Assembly (NCBI RefSeq): GCF_002813775.1
Contig: NZ_CP020370.1
Coordinates: forward strand, 3,869,501-3,933,500
Length of the DNA: 64,000 nucleotides
Source: Candidatus Thiodictyon syntrophicum
GTDB taxonomy: Bacteria; Pseudomonadota; Gammaproteobacteria; Chromatiales; Chromatiaceae
Reading direction: 5' to 3'
The notes under the pieces are model-generated. The model saw only the letters and a program-made list of their open reading frames with translations, did not search any database and was not told the DNA's origin. The stretch's first letter is position 1; each line of letters begins with the position of its first letter. Shown here piece after piece: positions 22,373-40,060 of this stretch. The position numbers were made by a program, and so were the translations under genes.

Positions 22373-22477
22373 ACACAAGCACTCGGAAAGCGGTGAAACG
22401 ACCCGCGCGATTGCCTCGCGCTGACTGGATGTTCGATCCGCGCATTTGGGCAGTTGATTATCAGGGCGGCATCTACG
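22373..22477 (+). pseudogene. degenerate echo of the HNH core
   Basis: This stretch repeats the HNH coding segment at about 22008-22132 in diverged form: CACAAGCACTCGGAAAGCGG, GATTGCCTCGCGCTGA, TGGATGTTCGATC and GTTGATTATCAGGGCGGC correspond in order. It is shorter and lacks a start, so it is the remnant of a second HNH gene copy. Confidence 0.72.
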
Positions 22478-23354
22478 GCGAGATCTTTACCCAAGGGCGA
22501 ATCTTCTCGAGCATTTTCTCGCCAATGCCCCTTACCCGCAAGAGATCTTCGACGGTCTGGTATGGGCGCCCCTCAATGATGGCATTGGCAGTCGCTTCGC
22601 CGACCCTGGGGATGCCCATCAGTTCATCTCTGGCCGCAGAGTTGACATCCACCATCTGCGTGGGCTGCTTCGGGTGCTTGTGCCCAGTCGCGATGCGGGC
22701 TTCCGAATCCTCCACTCGCTCGGCGCGACGCTCTTCCGCCAAGGCATCCCAATCGGTGTAGGCCCAGACCCCTTTGCGCTTATTGGCCGCCAGCAGTTCG
22801 CTGTCTCGCAGGACGTCCCGATAGTCTTCCTTGCTCAATCCCTTCGGAGTCGCTCGATACACGCCAAAGGCGCGGGCATGCCCCGCGGATACCAGTGACG
22901 TGGCAAGGTCCTCGCCTTGGGCTGTGGTAACGAATGCAAAAATGCGCCTGTACCTGCCGTCGCCTTTGGCATCGGAAAACGCGGTGTGCACAGTGAATGG
23001 TTCCGCCAACAGTGAACGCGTCGCGACGGCTGCGGCCTCCCCCAGGGATTTTGCCAGTTCGATAGAAGCGGTCGGCGTTCCGCCGTAACCGGAAATACCG
23101 AAGTACCGTCGCTGGGCACGTAGGCGCCTGGCGTCGGCGCCATCCGTAACATGCCACTCCAGGCAATCCGCACCATACAGGCGCAGCGTGTGTTCCGATC
23201 CGTCCGGGAAACGCACCAGAAAGCTGTCGCCATCCGCCCATTCGGCCGGCACCAAGCGAACGTTCTCAATGGCTTGCAGATCCGCGGCAAGAGCAAGTCC
23301 GTTCAGAAAGACAAGGACACAGAGCAGTGTTGATCGGATTACAGCGGAGAACAT
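22473..23354 (-). CDS. secreted thermonuclease-like protein with helix-hairpin-helix
   Basis: A 293-residue protein: signal peptide at residues 1-23 (LLCVLVFLNGLALAA), an SNase-like domain (residues 35-190) with WADGDSFLVRFPDG, LRLYGADCLEW, YRRIFAFVTTAQGEDLATSLVSAGHARAFG, and a ComEA-like helix-hairpin-helix near the C-terminus (VDVNSAARDELMGIPRVGEATANAII, then LLRVRGIGEKMLEKIRPWV). It probably cleaves extracellular or periplasmic DNA/RNA. Its start overlaps the end of the truncated helicase frame by 16 bases, and its stop lies in the HNH echo, showing rearranged borders on both sides. It looks intact. Confidence 0.87.
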   Translation of the reverse strand: MFSAVIRSTLLCVLVFLNGLALAADLQAIENVRLVPAEWADGDSFLVRFPDGSEHTLRLYGADCLEWHVTDGADARRLRAQRRYFGISGYGGTPTASIELAKSLGEAAAVATRSLLAEPFTVHTAFSDAKGDGRYRRIFAFVTTAQGEDLATSLVSAGHARAFGVYRATPKGLSKEDYRDVLRDSELLAANKRKGVWAYTDWDALAEERRAERVEDSEARIATGHKHPKQPTQMVDVNSAARDELMGIPRVGEATANAIIEGRPYQTVEDLLRVRGIGEKMLEKIRPWVKISP

Positions 23355-24781
23355 GATGTGAATCGAATGAGTTGATCCGGTCTGAGAGGGTGTTCATCTC
23401 GAAGATGGCAGCGGTGACGACAGAAACGCCCATCGGCAATGGCCTGCGCAAGGTTGTATTGGTACACGATCGAGCCGAAGTAGTCCAGCACCGCGGCAGT
23501 CCCAACGGGGTCGAAATGGCGTTCCGGGGTGGCGGAGAGTCCCAGGCGCAGGGTGATGCCGTCGGGCAGTGCCGCACGGGCGTTCTCGGCGCCCAGGTCG
23601 TGGACCTCGTCGGCGATCAGCAGGTGGTGGACGTTGCCGGCCGCGACCCGCGGGCGCAGGCGGGTCTGGAAGGCGTCGCTTTGAAAGGTCGCATTGGTGG
23701 TGACAATGGCCTGGACCTGGTCGAGCCCGGCGGTGAGGCGTTGGTATCCCTCTTCCAGTTGCGCCTGCCAGCGGTGGCGGCCCTCGAAGCAGGCGATGGC
23801 GTCGAGGCCGAAGGCGGCGATTTCTCTGATCCACTGGCGACAGAGATTGATGAAGGGACAGACGATGATCACGACCAGGGGCCGGTTGCGCTCGGCGACC
23901 TTGCTGGCGAGAACGAGCGCGGTGACGGTCTTGCCGGAGCCGGTCGCGATGGCGAAGACGCCGCGCCCGCCGGCCTTGCTCCAGGCGCGGATGGCGTCCT
24001 TCTGGTAGGGACGCAGTTCGAGCCCGGCGGGCGGGGTCAAGGTGGCGCCGGGGCCGGGCTCGCGGACCTGGTTGGGGTCGATGCCGGGCGGGGGTTGGTC
24101 GGGGTTGCGGTAGCGTTCCAGGAGGACGCGGCTGGCCTGGCTGAAGTCGATGATGGAGAGGCCCGGGACCTGGCCGGTCCACAGTGACTCGAAGTCGTCG
24201 ATGGCGGCCTGGACCCGGCCTTCCGGGTCCTGCCAGGAGCGGAACACGTCCAGGTGCTCGAAATTCTCGACCAGGCCACCGGCGGTCTCGTTGGCGGAGC
24301 CGGAGAAGCTGACGTGGTGGCCGCGGTCGTCGGAGAAGACGCCGGTCTTGGCGTGGAAGAGGCCGCGGGCGTAGCTGCCCTGCGGGGTGACGCGTAGCGC
24401 CAGCTTGATCTCCAAGAGACCGGCGGCGGCGAGCCAGGCGAGCGCGTTGAGCCGGTCCTTGATCAGGGCGTCTTCGATCTCGGCCAGGCTGCGGGCGGCG
24501 ATGGTGCGCAGCACCGCAGCCGGGGTGTCACGGGCACGTTCCAGGGCGGCGCAGTCGTCCGGTTCCAGGTGCGGGGAGACGATGAGTCGCATCCGCCCGC
24601 GCCGCAGCGCCAGGCTCGCGACCCCGCGGGCGGCGAGCGCGAGGCCGCTGCTGGTGAAATAGCCGGCGGCGCGGCGGTAGAGGACGGCTGACTGGAGACA
24701 GGGGACGAAGAAGCCGCGCACCAGGTCGTCCCGGCCGGTGCGGTAGGTGAGTTGCAGCGGGAGGTCGGTCAGGTTGGGCAC
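23339..24781 (-). pseudogene. PLD-nuclease/DEAD-box helicase, 3'-truncated
   Basis: Encodes the N-terminal 450 residues of a phospholipase-D-like nuclease joined to a superfamily 2 helicase. The PLD-like part has FHAKTGVFSDDRGHHVSFSGSANETAGG (HxK and SxN motifs, about residues 135-165). The helicase part has LRPYQKDAIRAW, Walker A ATGSGKT, the DEVH box in LLIADEVHDLG, and motif III LSATPERH. After LAQAIADGRF the family similarity ends and about 30 unrelated residues lead to a stop, so the second RecA domain (motifs IV-VI) is missing. It should not unwind nucleic acid as it stands. Part of this gene recurs as a short fragment at 28410-28530. Confidence 0.85.
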
Positions 24782-33126: not shown

Positions 33127-36100
33127 TCAGGCCCCCGGCGGGCCCGCCTGCCGGTGGGCGCGCCCTTGGTCGAGCTCCTGCCCGAGCATCCGCGCCGGCT
33201 CCTGCGCCAGCACCAGGTCCCGCCACAGGGGGACCTGCCAGCGATAGCCGTCCCCCTCGCGCCCCACCAGGAAGGCGAGTTCCAGCCGGGTCAGTGACTC
33301 CTTGATCGACTCCGGCGCCACCTGGAGCCCGCCCAGCAGGTCCAGCACGTCCGCCAGCCGGAACCGCTCCCGCCCGATCAGCCCATAGACGATCACCCGG
33401 TCCAGCCGTGCCGCCGCCGGGTCCGCGGTCAGTTCCCCCCAGCCCTCCAGCGCGCTGCGCAGCGACCCGCTGGTCAGGGCACGTTCCAGGTCCGAGTCAT
33501 CGAGCACCCGCTGCGCGAGCCCGAGCCCCTGGAGCATCTGGTCGCACAGGATGGCGATCAGGTTGGCCCGCCCGCCGGTCCGCTCCAGGATGCGCTCCAC
33601 CATCCCCGTGTCGGCATAGGTCAGCCCCAGGGCCGCCATCGGCTTGGTCACCAGGTCCCGGCACGCCTCCGGCTCCAGTGCACCGATCTGGATGGTCTCG
33701 GCGAAGTTCTTGATCGGCGACTGATAGTCGAAGCTGGCGGAGCGGTACAGGCTCCAGAACCCGGCCAGGATGAAGTGGCAGCGGCCCTCGTCGCTCAGTG
33801 ACCGGAAGCCGTTCAGACAGGCATAGCCGCGGGCGGCGTCCGCGGCCACGAAGGCGTCCGCCTCGTCCAGCAGCAGCACCCGCCGGGTGCCGGGCGGTAC
33901 CTGCGCCAACTGCCGCAGCAGGTCCTGCAGGGGTGTCGCCATCGGCAGCCCCAGGGCGGCGGCGAGCCGGGACTCCATGCTTGCCTGGCCCACGGACAGA
34001 TAGCGGCAGTCGACGCCCTTGCGCCCATCAAAGCGGCGTTGCAGGGCCAGCAGCAGGCTCGACTTGCCGAGCTGGCGCCCGCCCACCAACAGATAATTGG
34101 CCAGGTCCCCGCGGTTGAGGATGTCCGACAGGATGCGGGTACGGCCGAAGAAGCCGGACTCCTTACGCACGCCGAGGCTCGTCTGGTACGGCGAGATGCG
34201 CGCTACCTTCACATAGCGTGCGATCAGGCGGGCGAAGGTGTCCACCGGCTCCGCGGCCAGCAGCAGGGCGGAGAGTTCGCCGTCCTGCGGCGCCACCCAC
34301 CAGGTCTCGGGGGAGCGGCAGCGGCGGCTGAGATCCGCGCACTGGTCGGGGTCGCGCCCGAGCACCAGACAGGGCCGGTCGCCGCCGGTGCCCAGCAGCG
34401 TCAGCACGTCCTGCGCCGGCCAGTCCGCGGGCGGGAAGGCCACCCGGCAGGCGTTCAGGTTCAGCGGAAAGCCGTCCCCGAGCGTCAACTCGAAGTGCTC
34501 CATGGCCCCACCGTCCCCCAGCCCTTCGAGCCGTTGCCAGCCCGCCCCCAGCCGCTCGGCCAGCCAGCGTACCTGCCCCTCCGGCGACTCGCCGCGGAAC
34601 CGGATCGCCCGGTCCAGCCAGCGCCCCTGCACCCCGCCGGCCGCGAGCACAGCGCCGAGCCGGCGGGTGCGCCGCAGCAGGGTGCGCGCCCGCTCCAACT
34701 GACCGAGCCCGAGCCCGGCCAGGGCGGCCGGGTCCGCGGCCAACCGGCGGGTCAGCGGGTGGGTGTATTGGCGCAGCGACCAGAGCAGCGCGGACAGGGT
34801 CAGGACCAGCGCGGCGAGTCCGGCATAGAGCTGCCAGGGCGGGGTGGGCAGGCGGATCGGCCGGTCGGCGAAGGTCCAGTCGTGGGGCGGATAGGAGCGC
34901 TCATCGACGACCAGGGTCAGGCGGCTGTCCTTGTCCACCCGGGCGCCCTTGGGCAGCGCGAAGGAGAGCGGTAGATCGGCGCCCGCCTTGACCAGGGGCT
35001 GGCTCTGACGCGGGAGGTCCGCGGCGAGGCCGGTCAGATGGGCGCGCACCTCCGCCTGCTCCAGGTCCTGACCGCCGCCGTTGCGCAGCCTCACCGAGAC
35101 GGCCGGGGCGTCTCCCGGGACCAGTTCGGGCTCCGCCGCGACGACGATCCCCGGGGCCGTGGCGCGTATCGGGACTTCGACGGCTCCCGCGGTCCCGTGG
35201 GCGTGGTCCAGTTGGAGCCGCAGCCGGCCCGTGTGGGCTTGCGGGTCGGTCCAGGCGGCGAGATAGGAGACCTGGCCGGTGAGGTCGACCGACTGACCGG
35301 GGTCGAGACGCGGATGGACCGGCGGCGGAATATAGAGCAAGGGGTCGCCCAGGTCGCGCGCTTGGCGGATGCGCAGCCAATAGGCAGGGACCGAGCCCTG
35401 GTTGACGATGCGGACGCTGACCTCGGTGGAGCGGCCGTCGCCGGTGGCTAGGTCCGAAACGGGCCTTCCCCTTTCGAGTGCGTAGAACTCCAGGCGGGCG
35501 GGCTCGGCGCCGGCTGGCGGGGGCACCGGGGTCAGGAGACCGTTGGCCCCCTTGCGAACCAACAGCGAGCCGTTGTCATGCCGCCAACAGCGCCCCTCGG
35601 CGGGTCGGCAGGCGACCCATGCCCCATCGCGACCGCTGGCCAGGATCGCATTGCAGACTCCCGATTTCGGGTCCCACAGGCGCACCGTCTTGTCGCCCGA
35701 GGTGCTGGCGAGCAGGCGCCCGTCGGGGCTGAAGGCGACCCAATCCCCGTGCCCCTCCAGGGTGCGCACCGCCGCCCCCGTGGCCAGGTCCCAGAGGCGC
35801 ACCGTGTTGTCCGAGGCGCTGGCGAGTAGGCGCCCGTCAGGGCTGAAGGCGACCATCTCCCCTTGCTTCTTCAGGGTGCGCACCACCGCCCCGGTGGCAG
35901 GGTCCCATAGACGCACCGTCTCGTCCCACGAGGCGCTGGCGAGCAGACGCCCGTGGGGGCTGAAAGCGATCGCTTTAACCTCGTCCTTCCCCCGTTCCCG
36001 CAGATGCGGGTCACCATAATATGGGGAGCCCTCCAGGATGCGCACGGCCCCCCCCGTAGCCGGGTCCCACAGGCGCACCGTGTTGTCATCCGAGGCGCTG

Positions 36101-37608
36101 GCGAGTCGGCGTCCGTCGGGGCTGAAGGCGACCGCGTTGACCACATCCCCGTGACCCTCCAGGGTGCGCACCGCCACCCCCGTGGCCGGGTCCCACAGGC
36201 GCACCGTGTTATCCTCCGAGGCGCTGGCGAGCCGGCGTCCGTCGGGACTGAAGGCGACCGCGGTGACCTGATTCCCGTGCCCCTCCAGGCTGCGCACGGC
36301 CGCCCCCGTGGCCGAGTCCCACAGGCGCACAGCGTTGTCATACGAGGCACTACTAGCGAGTAGCCGTCCGTCGGGGCTGAACGCGACCCCGGTGACCCAA
36401 TCCCCGTGCCCCTCCAGGGTGCGCACGACCGCCGCGGTGGCCGGATCCCACAGGCACACCGGATTGACTCCCGAGGCGCTGGCAAGCAAGCGCCCATCGG
36501 GGCTGAAGGCGACCGCGTTGACCCAATCCCCGTGCCCCTCCAGGGTGCGCACCACCGCCCCCGTGGCCGGGTCCCACAGGCTCACCATATCCCTCGAGGC
36601 GCTGGCGATCAGGCGCCCGTCGGGGCTGAAGGCCACCACGGTGACCGAACTCCCGTGCCCCTCCAGGGTGCGCACTGCTGCGCCCGTGGCCGGGTCCCAC
36701 AGGCGCACGGTGTTGTCGCGCGAGGCGCCAGCGAGCAGGCGCCCATCGGGGCTGAAGGCGATAGCACCGACCGGCGCGTTATCTCCCGCGAGATTTCTTA
36801 CTGTCGGGCCCGTGGTCAGTTCCCACTGGCGGACGCTCGTACCCGCGGAGGTGCTCGCGAGGAGGCGCCCATCGGGGCTGAAGGCGACCGCGGTGACCTC
36901 TCGCTGCCACACCGCGCCTTTAGGCGCCCCAGTGGCCGGGCTCCAGAGCCACACGGTGCCGTCGTCCGACACGCTTACCAACTGGTCCCCGTCGGGGCTG
37001 AAGGCGACCTTGACCTCGACATAAACGACGCGAAGAACGTCAAACCCTATAGGTCCCTCCGTGGGCTCGGTATACACCGTGCAGTCCTGCCCGAGGCACG
37101 CCCCCGTGGCCGGGTCCCAGAGGCGCACGGTGCCGTCTCGCGAGGCGCCTGCGAGCACGCGCCCGTCGGGGCTGAAGGTGATCGCTTCGTCCGTTTCCTG
37201 ATACCGCTCTAGGGCACGCACGAGCGCGCCGGTGGCCGGGTCCCACAGGCGCACGCGATCCCGGGACGCGCTCGCCAGCAGCCGTCCGTCGGGGCTGAAG
37301 GCGACCGCAGTGACCGAATACCCGTCCCCTTCCAGGGTGCGCACGGCCGCGCCCGTGGCCGGGTCCCAGAGGTAAACCACGTCACCCGAACCACTGGCGA
37401 GCAGACGCCCGTCGGGGCTGAAGGCAACCGCGCTGACCACCTCTTGCGGCATAATCCCAGCAATGACCCCTTCCGGATCATCGATCACCTCCCCCTCCGC
37501 CACCAGCGGCAGAAAATCCCCAGCCGCCAGGCCGCGCGCCAGGCACAAGAGCAAGAGCCCCCACCACCCAAGCCCCAGCCGCCGCCAAAGCCCCCCCGCC
37601 CGGCTCAT
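33127..37608 (-). CDS. WD40-repeat membrane protein with cytoplasmic P-loop NTPase
   Basis: A 1,493-residue protein with a layered layout. A Sec signal peptide (WWGLLLLCLARGLAA, residues about 15-29) leads into 14 WD40 repeats (residues about 55-670), counted from VAFSPDGRLLASAS and VRLWDPATGA units, enough for two seven-bladed propellers. A CARDB-like beta domain follows (700-890), then one membrane helix (LYAGLAALVLTLSALLWSL, about 923-950). The cytoplasmic part carries a STAND/AAA-like NTPase: Walker A GGRQLGKSS near 1178 and Walker B RVLLLDEADAF. The start at 37608 overlaps the TIR gene stop (ATGA). The propellers should lie in the periplasm and sense or bind something there. Confidence 0.85.
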   Translation of the reverse strand: MSRAGGLWRRLGLGWWGLLLLCLARGLAAGDFLPLVAEGEVIDDPEGVIAGIMPQEVVSAVAFSPDGRLLASGSGDVVYLWDPATGAAVRTLEGDGYSVTAVAFSPDGRLLASASRDRVRLWDPATGALVRALERYQETDEAITFSPDGRVLAGASRDGTVRLWDPATGACLGQDCTVYTEPTEGPIGFDVLRVVYVEVKVAFSPDGDQLVSVSDDGTVWLWSPATGAPKGAVWQREVTAVAFSPDGRLLASTSAGTSVRQWELTTGPTVRNLAGDNAPVGAIAFSPDGRLLAGASRDNTVRLWDPATGAAVRTLEGHGSSVTVVAFSPDGRLIASASRDMVSLWDPATGAVVRTLEGHGDWVNAVAFSPDGRLLASASGVNPVCLWDPATAAVVRTLEGHGDWVTGVAFSPDGRLLASSASYDNAVRLWDSATGAAVRSLEGHGNQVTAVAFSPDGRRLASASEDNTVRLWDPATGVAVRTLEGHGDVVNAVAFSPDGRRLASASDDNTVRLWDPATGGAVRILEGSPYYGDPHLRERGKDEVKAIAFSPHGRLLASASWDETVRLWDPATGAVVRTLKKQGEMVAFSPDGRLLASASDNTVRLWDLATGAAVRTLEGHGDWVAFSPDGRLLASTSGDKTVRLWDPKSGVCNAILASGRDGAWVACRPAEGRCWRHDNGSLLVRKGANGLLTPVPPPAGAEPARLEFYALERGRPVSDLATGDGRSTEVSVRIVNQGSVPAYWLRIRQARDLGDPLLYIPPPVHPRLDPGQSVDLTGQVSYLAAWTDPQAHTGRLRLQLDHAHGTAGAVEVPIRATAPGIVVAAEPELVPGDAPAVSVRLRNGGGQDLEQAEVRAHLTGLAADLPRQSQPLVKAGADLPLSFALPKGARVDKDSRLTLVVDERSYPPHDWTFADRPIRLPTPPWQLYAGLAALVLTLSALLWSLRQYTHPLTRRLAADPAALAGLGLGQLERARTLLRRTRRLGAVLAAGGVQGRWLDRAIRFRGESPEGQVRWLAERLGAGWQRLEGLGDGGAMEHFELTLGDGFPLNLNACRVAFPPADWPAQDVLTLLGTGGDRPCLVLGRDPDQCADLSRRCRSPETWWVAPQDGELSALLLAAEPVDTFARLIARYVKVARISPYQTSLGVRKESGFFGRTRILSDILNRGDLANYLLVGGRQLGKSSLLLALQRRFDGRKGVDCRYLSVGQASMESRLAAALGLPMATPLQDLLRQLAQVPPGTRRVLLLDEADAFVAADAARGYACLNGFRSLSDEGRCHFILAGFWSLYRSASFDYQSPIKNFAETIQIGALEPEACRDLVTKPMAALGLTYADTGMVERILERTGGRANLIAILCDQMLQGLGLAQRVLDDSDLERALTSGSLRSALEGWGELTADPAAARLDRVIVYGLIGRERFRLADVLDLLGGLQVAPESIKESLTRLELAFLVGREGDGYRWQVPLWRDLVLAQEPARMLGQELDQGRAHRQAGPPGA

Positions 37609-38999
37609 GCGAGCACCCGCAGCCCCGCCCCAACCACCGCCGGGCAGCGCCAGACCAGCCGCTCCTGACCCGCCGGGCCCTCGGCGCGCAGCAGGTTCAG
37701 CCAGTAGAGCCGGCGGAGCCCCGGGTTGCCGATCCAGGTCCGAAAGGCCCCCAGGTCGGACCGGGCCAGCCACTCCTTGAGGTCCCGGCGCTGGTCCGGG
37801 TCCTGGGCGATGGCGCTGAACTGGGCCTCGATCTGGCTGGAGCGCTCAAGCGCCTGGGTACACTCGGGCAGCGGCCGACCCTTGGCCCGGAGCCGCAGGG
37901 CGTCCAGGATCAGGCGCGGGTGTCCGCCGCTCGCCGTCAGGATCGCCAGGGCGTCCTCCGCGGACAGGTCCAGGGGCGGGGTGCAGTGCCGGGCCTGATC
38001 CATCAGATCGCCGGTGTTCCACTCGGGCCAGTGCCTGGGCTCGGCGTGGCTCAGAAAGGACAGGTCGCCCTGGGCGTATTTGAGCCCGGCGAGCCCCTCG
38101 CCGCCCACGAGCACGACGCGCAGGGCCTCACCGTGGAAATCGGAGAGTCCGCGCAGGCAGGCCGCGAGCCGCGAGCGACCGGCCTCGGAGCAGGAGTCCA
38201 GGCCGCTGACCAGCAGGAACAGCCGCTCACCGGCGGCGAGCCGATCCTCCAGGCGGGACTCGAAGGCGCCGGCATCCTGGGGCGGCGGCTGCATCCCGGC
38301 GCGCCGGCCCAGGGTGGCGAAGAATTCGGCCTCGGTGGCCTCCGGACCCTGGGGCGGGGCCAGGCGCAGCGCCCGTTCGGAGCCGCAAACTTCCTTCGAC
38401 CGCTCGTGCAGCGCCGCCAGTGAGCCGTTGAGTTCCCGATCCTTCTGGGCGAGCAGGATCAGGGTCGGGTAGCTGTAGAGAAGCTCGAAGACCTCGTCCA
38501 GGAAGACGCTGTCGCTGGGCAGCGGCGGCGGGTCGGCCGCCAGGCCGTCGGCGGGAGCGGTCGTCGGGGCGGCGCCGGTCCCTGACGCGGGGGGCCGGCC
38601 GGTGATGCCCCAGACCAGGCGCGCAAGGTCCTCGCCATCGAGCCCGCCGCGCAGGTCAACCCAGGTGCGGTTAGCCAGGAACAGCGGCAGTTCCGGCTGC
38701 ACCGGCGCCCCCGGCAGGACCACCGGGATGACCGGCCGGCCATCGCGCACGGCCAAGGTCAGTGCCCCCCGCATCTCCTCGTCCTCCCAAGGCCCGATAC
38801 CGTCCGCGGCCACACAGACCGCGACGCTCGCGGCGCCCTTGATCCCCTGCTCCAACAGGCTCTGCCAGGGCAGACCTGGGCGCAACTGCTCCTCGTCCAG
38901 CCAGCAGCGCACACCCTGCCCCTCCAGGGCCAGTTTGAGCGCCCGCACGGCGGGCTTGTCCTTGCTGTTGTGGGAGAGGAAGCAATCGAAGCTGGGCAT
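37605..38999 (-). CDS. TIR-domain protein with degenerate NTPase-like region
   Basis: A 464-residue cytoplasmic protein. Residues 1-130 form a TIR domain: FDCFLSHNSKDKPAVRALKLAL (box 1), CWLDEEQLRPGLPW (BB loop), and PWEDEEMRGAL at about 70-79 with the likely catalytic Glu of NADase-type TIRs. Residues 165-400 resemble a P-loop NTPase (LFLLVSGLDSCSEAGRSRLA as a Walker B-like strand, GGHPRLILDALRL), but the place of Walker A reads LILLAQKDRELNGSL with no GKS/T, so it probably cannot hydrolyse NTP. Translational coupling with the NTPase gene downstream suggests that the pair act together, possibly as NAD-depleting immunity or signalling. Confidence 0.85.
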   Translation of the reverse strand: MPSFDCFLSHNSKDKPAVRALKLALEGQGVRCWLDEEQLRPGLPWQSLLEQGIKGAASVAVCVAADGIGPWEDEEMRGALTLAVRDGRPVIPVVLPGAPVQPELPLFLANRTWVDLRGGLDGEDLARLVWGITGRPPASGTGAAPTTAPADGLAADPPPLPSDSVFLDEVFELLYSYPTLILLAQKDRELNGSLAALHERSKEVCGSERALRLAPPQGPEATEAEFFATLGRRAGMQPPPQDAGAFESRLEDRLAAGERLFLLVSGLDSCSEAGRSRLAACLRGLSDFHGEALRVVLVGGEGLAGLKYAQGDLSFLSHAEPRHWPEWNTGDLMDQARHCTPPLDLSAEDALAILTASGGHPRLILDALRLRAKGRPLPECTQALERSSQIEAQFSAIAQDPDQRRDLKEWLARSDLGAFRTWIGNPGLRRLYWLNLLRAEGPAGQERLVWRCPAVVGAGLRVLA

Positions 39000-39133
39000 G
39001 GCCGGTTCCTTTGTCGGATCATCCGCCGATTATGCCCGCCCGCGGCGGGCCTGTCCCGTGCCGCCCTTCGTCACCATTCCCGGCGGCGGTCTTCGCGGCA
39101 GCCCGTCGCGGCCGGGGGCCGCTCCTACGGCGT
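38796..39133. repeat. segmental duplication, copy 1
   Basis: The first 68 codons of the TIR gene plus about 134 bases upstream are repeated at 39722-40060 with scattered differences. Confidence 0.85.
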
Positions 39134-39159: not shown

Positions 39160-39207
39160 TAGCAAACAGACACAGCGCGGCGGCCAGGACGCTAAGCGGC
39201 GTCCATC

Positions 39208-39300
39208 ACCCGCATGTTCGACCGCCCAGGCATGATGCCGCTCGCGGCGATCAAGAAAGGCCACCAAGGGTCCGGTATCAGCGATGGCCCAGCGCGTCAC
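39208..39300 (-). pseudogene. VapC N-terminal fragment
   Basis: GTG at 39300 opens a PIN-domain start, WAIADTGPLVAFLDRRERHH, with the first catalytic Asp (DTGPLVAFLD). After AWAVEHA the family similarity ends and the frame runs into the 39102 palindrome. The other three acidic catalytic positions are missing, so the toxin is dead. Confidence 0.8.
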
Positions 39301-39568
39301 GACCGAACCCTTCCAGGTGCCGCGGATGACTGGCCAGGTCATCGACGCCCGAATCGATGATGCCCGCGCCATCCGCCATCAACGCCGATAGGTCCGCCGC
39401 CATCGCCCCCGGCTCAAGCTGCATTTGCTTGGAGTCCAACCGCTGCGCCGGGGGCAGCAAGCGGCGCAGTGCCTCTGCCAGCAGGTCGGCCAGACGCAGG
39501 CCGCGCCGGGCCGCTTCAGTATTGGCCTGACGCAGCAGTTCGTCCGGTAGATCGACGGTGGTCTTCAT
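39278..39568 (-). CDS. VapB-like ribbon-helix-helix antitoxin
   Basis: A 96-residue antitoxin. The N-terminus MKTTVDLPDELLRQANTEAA and RLADLLAEALRRLL form a ribbon-helix-helix DNA-binding domain. The C-terminus, GIIDSGVDDLASHPRHLEGFGRDA, is the toxin-binding tail found in VapBC pairs. It overlaps the vapC start by 23 bases. Because the toxin is truncated, the antitoxin is an orphan but looks complete. Confidence 0.85.
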   Translation of the reverse strand: MKTTVDLPDELLRQANTEAARRGLRLADLLAEALRRLLPPAQRLDSKQMQLEPGAMAADLSALMADGAGIIDSGVDDLASHPRHLEGFGRDALGHR

Positions 39569-39685: not shown

Positions 39686-39925
39686 TCAGCCGGTGTCGGA
39701 GCACGAGCACGAGTCCAGTCCGATGCCGTCCACGGCGACACAGACCGCGACGCTGCCGGCGCTCTTGATCCCCTGCTCCAACAGCGTCTGCCAGGGCAGC
39801 CCGGGCCGCAACTGCTCCTCGTCCAGCCAGCAGCGCACCCCCTGCCCTTCCAGGGCCAGTTTGAGCGCCCGCACGGCGGGCTTGTCCTTGCTGTTGTGGG
39901 AGAGGAAGCAATCGAAGCTGGGCAT
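39686..39925 (-). pseudogene. truncated TIR gene copy
   Basis: The first 68 residues equal those of the TIR protein at 37605-38999 apart from a few changes (WQTLLEQGIKSAGSVAVCVAVDGIG). It then switches to an unrelated tail, LDSCSCSDTG, and stops at 79 residues. The catalytic-Glu region and the rest are missing. Confidence 0.88.
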
Positions 39926-40060
39926 GGCCGGTTCCTTTGTCGGATCGCCCGCCGATTATGCCCGCCCGCGGCGGCCCTGTCCCGTGCCGTGCTTCGTCAC
40001 CATTCCAGGCGGCGGTCTTCGCGGCTGCACGTCGCGGCCTGGCGGCTGCTCCTACGGCGT
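39722..40060. repeat. segmental duplication, copy 2
   Basis: Second copy of 38796-39133, about 339 bases, in the same orientation, separated from the first by the vapB/vapC' genes. Confidence 0.85.

Follow-up and report, generated by a model that had tools for sequence, protein, structure and literature searches.

The subject of this work is a pair of adjacent genes, A and B, on the reverse strand of the window, the 64,000-nucleotide stretch at positions 3,869,501 to 3,933,500 of contig NZ_CP020370.1 (assembly GCF_002813775.1) of Candidatus Thiodictyon syntrophicum. Thiodictyon syntrophicum Cad16T is a purple sulfur bacterium (PMC5944118), and the genome to which the window belongs comprises three contigs (7,738,984 base pairs, bp), including C1, which carries the window (6,837,296 bp), and C2 (416,864 bp). 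The two genes probably encode a split transmembrane receptor built around nucleoside triphosphatase (NTPase) domains of the STAND class. Their features are as follows, with positions counted from the first base of the window.

37605..38999, reverse strand: gene A, 464 amino acids (aa), TIR domain and inactive STAND/AAA+ domain (pseudo-NTPase)
38610..38993, reverse strand: TIR_2 domain, about residues 3-130 of gene A, with W71-x3-E75 at the catalytic site
37608..38516, reverse strand: inactive AAA+/STAND-like domain with a winged-helix-like end, residues 162-464 of gene A, lacking Walker A, paralogue of the gene B NTPase
37605..37608, reverse strand: ATGA, four-base stop/start overlap of genes A and B
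33127..37608, reverse strand: gene B, 1,493 aa, signal-peptide-like start, 14 WD40 units, tandem beta domain, transmembrane helix, active STAND/AAA+ domain
37522..37608, reverse strand: signal-peptide-like N-terminus, residues ~1-29 of gene B, by hydropathy only
35640..37446, reverse strand: 14 WD40 units, predicted to be extracytoplasmic
34858..35496, reverse strand: tandem beta-sandwich domains, about residues 705-917 of gene B, immunoglobulin-like by the kinds of structures matched
34765..34839, reverse strand: predicted transmembrane helix, residues 924-948 of gene B, followed by a juxtamembrane HPL motif
33130..34731, reverse strand: predicted cytoplasmic STAND/AAA+ NTPase region with a winged-helix-like C-terminus
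34057..34083, reverse strand: Walker A motif GGRQLGKSS, residues 1176-1184 of gene B
33850..33879, reverse strand: Walker B motif VLLLDEADAF, residues 1244-1253 of gene B

Much of this layout had been read from the bare sequence in an original prediction, which described a TIR gene overlapping by four bases a gene for a 1,493-residue protein with a signal peptide, 14 WD40 units, a beta domain, one membrane helix and an NTPase with intact Walker A and B motifs. The ATGA overlap is confirmed at 37605-37608, Pfam, motif counting, AlphaFold2 and hydropathy agree on the make-up of gene B, and both Walker motifs are present at residues 1176-1184 and 1244-1253. Pfam detects WD40 in 14 stretches of gene B (E-value 4.2e-137) and the motif count also gives 14 units, which suggests two seven-bladed propellers. 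The AlphaFold2 model of residues 690-1493 (mean predicted local distance difference test score, pLDDT, 92.7) contains a tandem beta-sandwich, one long helix (924-948) and an AAA+-like domain. In Foldseek searches this model retrieved beta-sandwich proteins for its first part, and the archaeal ATPases 2qen and 2fna, RuvB, Cdc6/ORC and clamp loaders. The non-WD40 part matches Pfam AAA_22 (9.3e-7, 29.7 bits, cut-off 27). The match to nSTAND1 (PF20703, cut-off 27.1 bits) is borderline, two cuts of the gene B protein scoring 27.6 (3e-6) and 28.7 bits, and the scores of two relatives spread widely (38.2 bits for L038, 20.6 for L037). Its Pfam listing at E-values up to 10 includes AAA_22, nSTAND1, TniB, AAA_14 and AAA_16. 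The gene B NTPase profile found no match among the sequences of solved structures at E-values up to 0.01. Gene B has the AAA+ core with winged helix, the Walker A and B motifs and the sensor repeats by which STAND NTPases are recognized. A PADLOC match of gene B to HEAT-ARM_XIII falls within the WD40 repeats and was set aside.

To follow these domains across genomes, an 84,980-species collection was scanned with the non-WD40 part of gene B, which gave 132 matching stretches with 92 relatives among them; the 80 best of these relatives were retained and are designated by L numbers. The conservation sets hold 82 gene B domains (L047 was dropped) and 69 gene A domains, the 14 of 83 loci with a partial gene A or none being left aside. 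Walker A is found in 81 of the 82 gene B domains, with a variant in L073, and Walker B in all of them. As for gene A, the original prediction had noted an NTPase-like part lacking Walker A, and this was borne out, as none of the 69 domains has the motif. It had missed that the region following the TIR domain is, by profile-profile comparison, a degenerate paralogue of the gene B NTPase (248 aligned columns, probability 91%, E-value 1.2e-6). In the AlphaFold2 model of gene A (mean pLDDT 87.5), the TIR domain scores in blocks of 55-90, and the AAA+-like domain with its winged-helix-like end is modelled confidently. The best Foldseek match of this model is the plant TIR-NLR RPP1 (E-value 8.9e-10, TM-score to query 0.41), followed by ORC, TnsC, the archaeal ATPase 2qen and the apoptosome, with a weak match to Avs4. 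The gene A NTPase profile had no match among the sequences of solved structures at E-values up to 0.1. A conserved arginine of both NTPase domains was considered as an arginine finger, a role not established with the motif used, which was too loose.

The TIR domain itself is detected by Pfam as TIR_2 in residues 7-128 (2.9e-22). NAD+ (nicotinamide adenine dinucleotide) cleavage by gene A is likely, because W-x3-E sits at the aligned catalytic site in 16 of 19 TIR domains (E75 in the window). Against ThsB models of the Thoeris system the window TIR reached an E-value of 0.004 or worse, short of a ThsB-level match, and gene B matched no ThsA model. The TIR domain of L038 passes the Pfam ThsB_TIR threshold (23.2 bits, cut-off 21.2).

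The pair belongs to a family of many related pairs, which the original prediction had not recognized. Of the 80 loci, 69 offer more than 1,500 bases 5' of gene B, and 66 of these have gene A there in the same orientation. The four-base overlap recurs in 34 of the 80 relatives if the start codon nearest the end of gene A is taken. For L045, L047 and L069, the apparent gaps are a product of split reading frames and were left out of the count. Among 210 genomes of the window's order (G numbers designate genomes), we found nine strong gene A places (E < 1e-25) in eight genomes, and the same eight hold the gene B places at E < 1e-60. With weaker B-like matches included, the tallies are 20 of 210 genomes for B and 9 of 210 for A. 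At eight of the nine strong A places, gene B is beside gene A on the same contig or, in G195, about 1.5 kilobases (kb) further; the ninth, in G154, is broken across contig ends inside the WD40 stretch. Of 304 genomes spread over the class, three have a strong gene A, namely the window's own, G239 and G459. Furthermore, the evolutionary distances of the A and B domains are correlated over 69 pairs (r 0.981; 0.979 for the 48 pairs with a short sensor and a DNA-binding output, 0.879 for the other 21), and none of 2000 permutations, a procedure that leaves shared phylogeny in, reached as high a value. Chance is very far from accounting for the A/B arrangement. The two genes are strongly but not absolutely linked, because G239 has gene A without an adjacent gene B and G459 has the two genes reversed and separated. 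Several gene B relatives (L034/L047, L018, L040, L045 and L069) are fragments or are interrupted by stops or frameshifts, as occurs in conflict genes or misassembled repeats. At L060:270-4220, in Parabeggiatoa HSG14, a CHAT-like/STAND protein, identified by eye, lies near an orphan gene B.

Signal peptides and topology were called from hydropathy and charge only, in a set of 83 proteins (the window, L038, L039 and the 80 loci) from which second pieces of split genes were dropped. A strong hydrophobic helix precedes the NTPase in 25 of the 26 WD40-type gene B proteins, that of the window included. Lysine and arginine residues are commoner after than before the helix in 20 of them, and equal in 5. 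The threshold for signal-peptide-like hydropathy is passed by 19 of the 26; of the seven under it, L049, L063, L066 and L067 are truncated by a nearby contig end or a run of N, and L053, L059 and L071 are slightly below. Of the other 57 proteins, 55 have the helix, 45 an excess of lysine and arginine on its C-terminal side (equal in 11) and 48 a signal-peptide-like start. An HPL motif or a near form of it ([HN]P[LIMTV]) follows the helix in 64 of 82 gene B relatives. The topology initially proposed, with exported WD40 repeats, one helix and a cytoplasmic NTPase, thus appears to fit the window and most relatives.

Sequence comparison across the family indicates that the NTPase core is constant and that the sensor and output ends are both swapped. 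Gene A carries as output a TIR domain, CHAT plus TIR (L062), a trypsin-like domain (L074), hydrophobic helices (L052, L053) or a helix-turn-helix (HTH) domain. A profile of the latter matches LexA-like and P22 C2 repressor structures (best E-value 1.5e-8), and its only Pfam match is a sub-threshold one to YdaS. On the gene B side, the sensors are WD40 repeats, TPR (L074), Reg_prop/Y_Y_Y (L064) or a short domain between two hydrophobic segments. Detected WD40 units number 1 to 15 per gene B, some arrays being cut by contig ends, and the window's count of 14 recurs in six relatives (L038, L046, L061, L065, L070, L073). The most similar pair of WD40 units shows a DNA identity of 90% in the window, 94% in L032, 100% in L038 and 69% in L033, where the pattern found four units. 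Over a quick NTPase tree with several long branches, 17 TIR, 48 HTH, two hydrophobic-helix and one trypsin-like outputs require a minimum of four changes for outputs and five for sensors; the labels were set by hand, TIR by profile, HTH by exclusion and N-termini read by eye, and the short sensor by locus. In L058, a WD40 sensor is joined to an HTH output. The short extracytoplasmic domain of HTH-type gene B proteins has no Pfam match. In these proteins, for example at L088:9425-11578, this domain ends in Cys...PP.P..YLP.NC, a stretch reminiscent of the loop at the C-terminus of type IV pilins. A soluble variant occurs at L037:8206-14950, the same place as L051, where a protein with an N-terminus of about 560 aa, a tandem TIR and the inactive domain is followed by an NTPase without sensor or membrane helix and then by a DUF4062-NTPase gene.

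We propose that gene B would be an inner-membrane protein that exposes its WD40 array, on a stalk of beta domains, to the periplasm and keeps its active STAND/AAA+ switch on the cytoplasmic side. Its soluble partner would be gene A, in which an output domain is joined to an inactive paralogue of the switch. The propellers may detect a ligand or a contact and signal this to the active NTPase by way of the membrane helix. By analogy with STAND assemblies, the latter would then change its nucleotide state and form, together with the inactive domain of gene A, a mixed oligomer beneath the membrane. This oligomer would cluster the output domains and thereby switch them on. In the window, the TIR output would most likely cleave NAD+, or make an ADP-ribose signal, and thereby arrest growth or kill the cell. 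The core shared with the relatives would act in them through a DNA-binding HTH, a trypsin-like protease, CHAT plus TIR or hydrophobic helices.

Several observations weigh against this model. Gene B occurs without an upstream gene A in L060, L068 and L071, and the genes are 0.3-4.6 kb apart in nine of the 80 loci, in one of which (L110) the gene A frame is itself incomplete. G239 has two copies of gene A; an unrelated gene comes after one copy, and the 919 bases of contig left beyond the other contain no gene B. Its B-like matches are weak (best 7.4e-6, with five of nine candidates scored). In G459, gene B precedes gene A, with a convergent gene in between. The Chromatiaceae pair L051 has a gene B devoid of sensor and membrane helix, although its tandem TIR and inactive domain are kept. 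The catalytic glutamate is absent from three of the 19 TIR domains, namely the second one of L051 and those of L055 and L057, and 18 of the 82 gene B relatives have no HPL-like motif. Shared host ancestry contributes to the A-B correlation, and the topology calls have the weakness of resting on hydropathy and charge. The coupled transmembrane module of the original prediction therefore stands in part: exported propellers, a cytoplasmic NTPase and a TIR output are supported by sequence, and adjacent homologous pairs and the TIR glutamate recur in most relatives, but these orphan or reversed loci and glutamate-less TIR domains depart from it. The original prediction had also missed that TIR is only one of several outputs, and the general task of the family therefore seems to be signalling across the membrane more than TIR immunity in particular.

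What the receptor serves for in the cell can be read in two ways, each of them possible. One is an anti-phage or anti-predator abortive system, whose propellers would sense an envelope event such as phage adsorption, injection or a contact toxin, and whose TIR domain would deplete NAD+. We consider it a credible if tentative explanation. The catalytic glutamate in 16 of 19 TIR domains, the occurrence of broken and truncated gene copies and WD40 units that look recently duplicated (up to 100% DNA identity, in L038) argue for it. The flanks of 12 TIR-type loci (88 proteins) matched 101 PADLOC families, the first 25 listed of which include JetC, GajB and ThsB models, and those of 10 HTH-type loci (88 proteins) matched 12 families (best E-value 3.5e-19). 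Nevertheless, the loci were hand-picked and the gene calls mechanical, and this difference is only a hint because the families are redundant (the JetC models match two proteins, those of GajB and ThsB one each). A defence island around the pair, which the original prediction had suggested looking for, is not seen right beside it. The nearest genes in the window are of housekeeping type (isocitrate lyase, pyridoxamine phosphate oxidase (PNPOx), DCC oxidoreductase, FtsX/ABC transporter, ValS and MutS families). A ResIII/DEAD helicase frame of restriction type lies about 8 kb beyond gene B on the reverse strand (23342-24781), next to an HHH/SNase-like frame (22476-23354), and the two (22476-24781) are possibly a defence or repair pair. 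Phage records gave no match to the module, the plasmid searches only one and five records with weak, partial matches (26-28%), and viral contigs scanned with the non-WD40 part of gene B no relative, a single-protein query that would reveal close relatives only. With these results, and with orphan A and B genes in existence, a defence role is no more than plausible.

The other is a receptor for envelope or social signals in ordinary regulation, of which the TIR version would be one form and in which the HTH would control transcription in many hosts; we regard it as a comparably open prospect. HTH outputs are found in 48 of the 68 classified gene A proteins (a label set by exclusion and by eye), their profile matches repressor structures, and HTH types reside on contigs of up to 1.6 megabases in genera such as Acidovorax, Pseudomonas and Stenotrophomonas, few PADLOC matches coming from their flanks. 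However, the 80 loci over-sample these genera. Moreover, the HTH/short-sensor set forms one clade inside a tree rich in TIR and WD40, so that HTH need not be ancestral.

It is unlikely, in our opinion, that sensing is cytoplasmic, with the inactive domain of gene A as a receptor for nucleic acid or a ligand and gene B as its cofactor. The predicted ORC/TnsC-like fold of this domain and its winged-helix-like end would suit such a role, which has been proposed for inactive STAND domains in the consulted part of PMC8195603, but variability and repeats are found at the exported end of gene B, and the inactive domain is the conserved part. That two independent genes merely travel together, as the existence of orphan A and orphan B genes might suggest, is very improbable in view of the 66/69 linkage, the four-base overlaps, the co-variation (0.98/0.88) and the paralogy.

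The region upstream of gene A has further features.

39029..39057, reverse strand: promoter-like GGGACA-17-CATAAT just 5' of gene A, consensus match only
38794..39093, reverse strand: 300-bp leader and 5' end of gene A, duplicated
39720..40019, reverse strand: second copy (94%) of the leader and the first ~69 codons of gene A, a truncated duplicate

The truncated duplicate (39720-40019) carries the same promoter-like pair as the copy at 38794-39093. Between both leader copies (~39185-39568, reverse strand), lies what appears by eye to be a small ribbon-helix-helix antitoxin gene and the truncated start of a PIN toxin; the one reading frame tested there had no Pfam match. A PIN-like frame, also identified by eye, is present at L048:7063-7659 in a Thiosymbion relative. 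Toxin-antitoxin pieces may thus adjoin the module twice, since the L048 frame lies between genes A and B. Elsewhere in the window's genome, there are 16 TIR matches including gene A and its truncated copy, seven of the others being 53-66% identical to the gene A TIR. On contig C2, positions 138371-139201 code for a 33% relative of the gene B NTPase within a 2,041-aa frame.

To return to the split receptor, the usual view of STAND switches is that they sense in the cytoplasm. If real, a conserved split form whose sensor lies on the outer side of the inner membrane would show how such a switch signals across the envelope; the inactive NTPase twin would gain a role as output carrier, and TIR immunity and ordinary gene regulation would be linked via one exchangeable core. 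The family is large enough to be studied in easily grown genera. It is possibly a little-noticed general way to signal across the bacterial membrane, because related pairs swap sensor and output. It is tempting to go further, though we hold this with some reserve, and to add to one- and two-component systems a further, general and so far unnamed class by which bacteria signal across the membrane; it would consist of a membrane-bound active STAND NTPase and a soluble, inactive, output-bearing twin, with the TIR/WD40 form as an 'outside-in' apoptosome.

Among known systems, two-component systems and one-component receptors such as CadC and ToxR also connect an extracytoplasmic sensor to a cytoplasmic output with swappable ends. 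We found no His-Asp relay here, and the link would instead be an NTPase and its inactive twin. APAF-1 combines a WD40 double propeller with a STAND switch and plant TIR-NLRs place a TIR domain on such a switch, in both cases in single soluble chains with C-terminal sensors. The pair shares the association of WD40 or TIR with STAND, but it comprises two chains, with an N-terminal sensor predicted to be outside the membrane. Soluble nSTAND1-WD40, TIR-STAND and Avs systems likewise have a STAND switch, an effector and a repeat sensor, in one cytoplasmic chain whose sensor sees cytoplasmic ligands, whereas here the system is split and the sensor predicted to be extracytoplasmic. The STAND/CLec systems of Thiohalocapsa PB-PSB1, from a related host group, have CLec sensors diversified by diversity-generating retroelements, and a NACHT and a CLec target are predicted to be periplasmic; an active/inactive NTPase pair is not described in the consulted part of that source (PMC10907252). 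Swarozyc/TEP1 proteins share a TIR-like NADase, which is the newly reported DUF4062 family rather than TIR_2; TEP1 joins this enzyme to NACHT and WD40, the trigger of Swarozyc is a phage portal, and the consulted part of the preprint PMC13174449 describes no membrane split.

Our literature search, with subscription papers mostly outside its reach, found no description of a membrane version of a split STAND family. The closest described plan is that of nSTAND2 (Kaur et al. 2021, PMC8195603), a two-gene operon with one active STAND NTPase and one whose NTP-binding motifs are eroded, the latter being fused to variable effectors. As in nSTAND2, genes A and B are adjacent and contribute one active and one inactive STAND domain. 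In contrast, nSTAND2 is described with GT4 or HEPN effectors, the commonest there, and has CR-ATPase, Dap3 and RNA12 as kin (PMC8195603, section 15), whereas gene A has TIR, and its relatives TIR, HTH, trypsin-like domains or hydrophobic helices. The Pfam listing of gene B at E-values up to 10 has no Dap3 or RNA12, which sets it apart by families, not by comparison with nSTAND2 sequences. Gene B also has a predicted membrane helix and exported sensor, neither of which is mentioned in section 15 of PMC8195603. The two-gene plan with an active and an inactive STAND domain is thus known, and what appears to be new here is its predicted membrane-spanning version.

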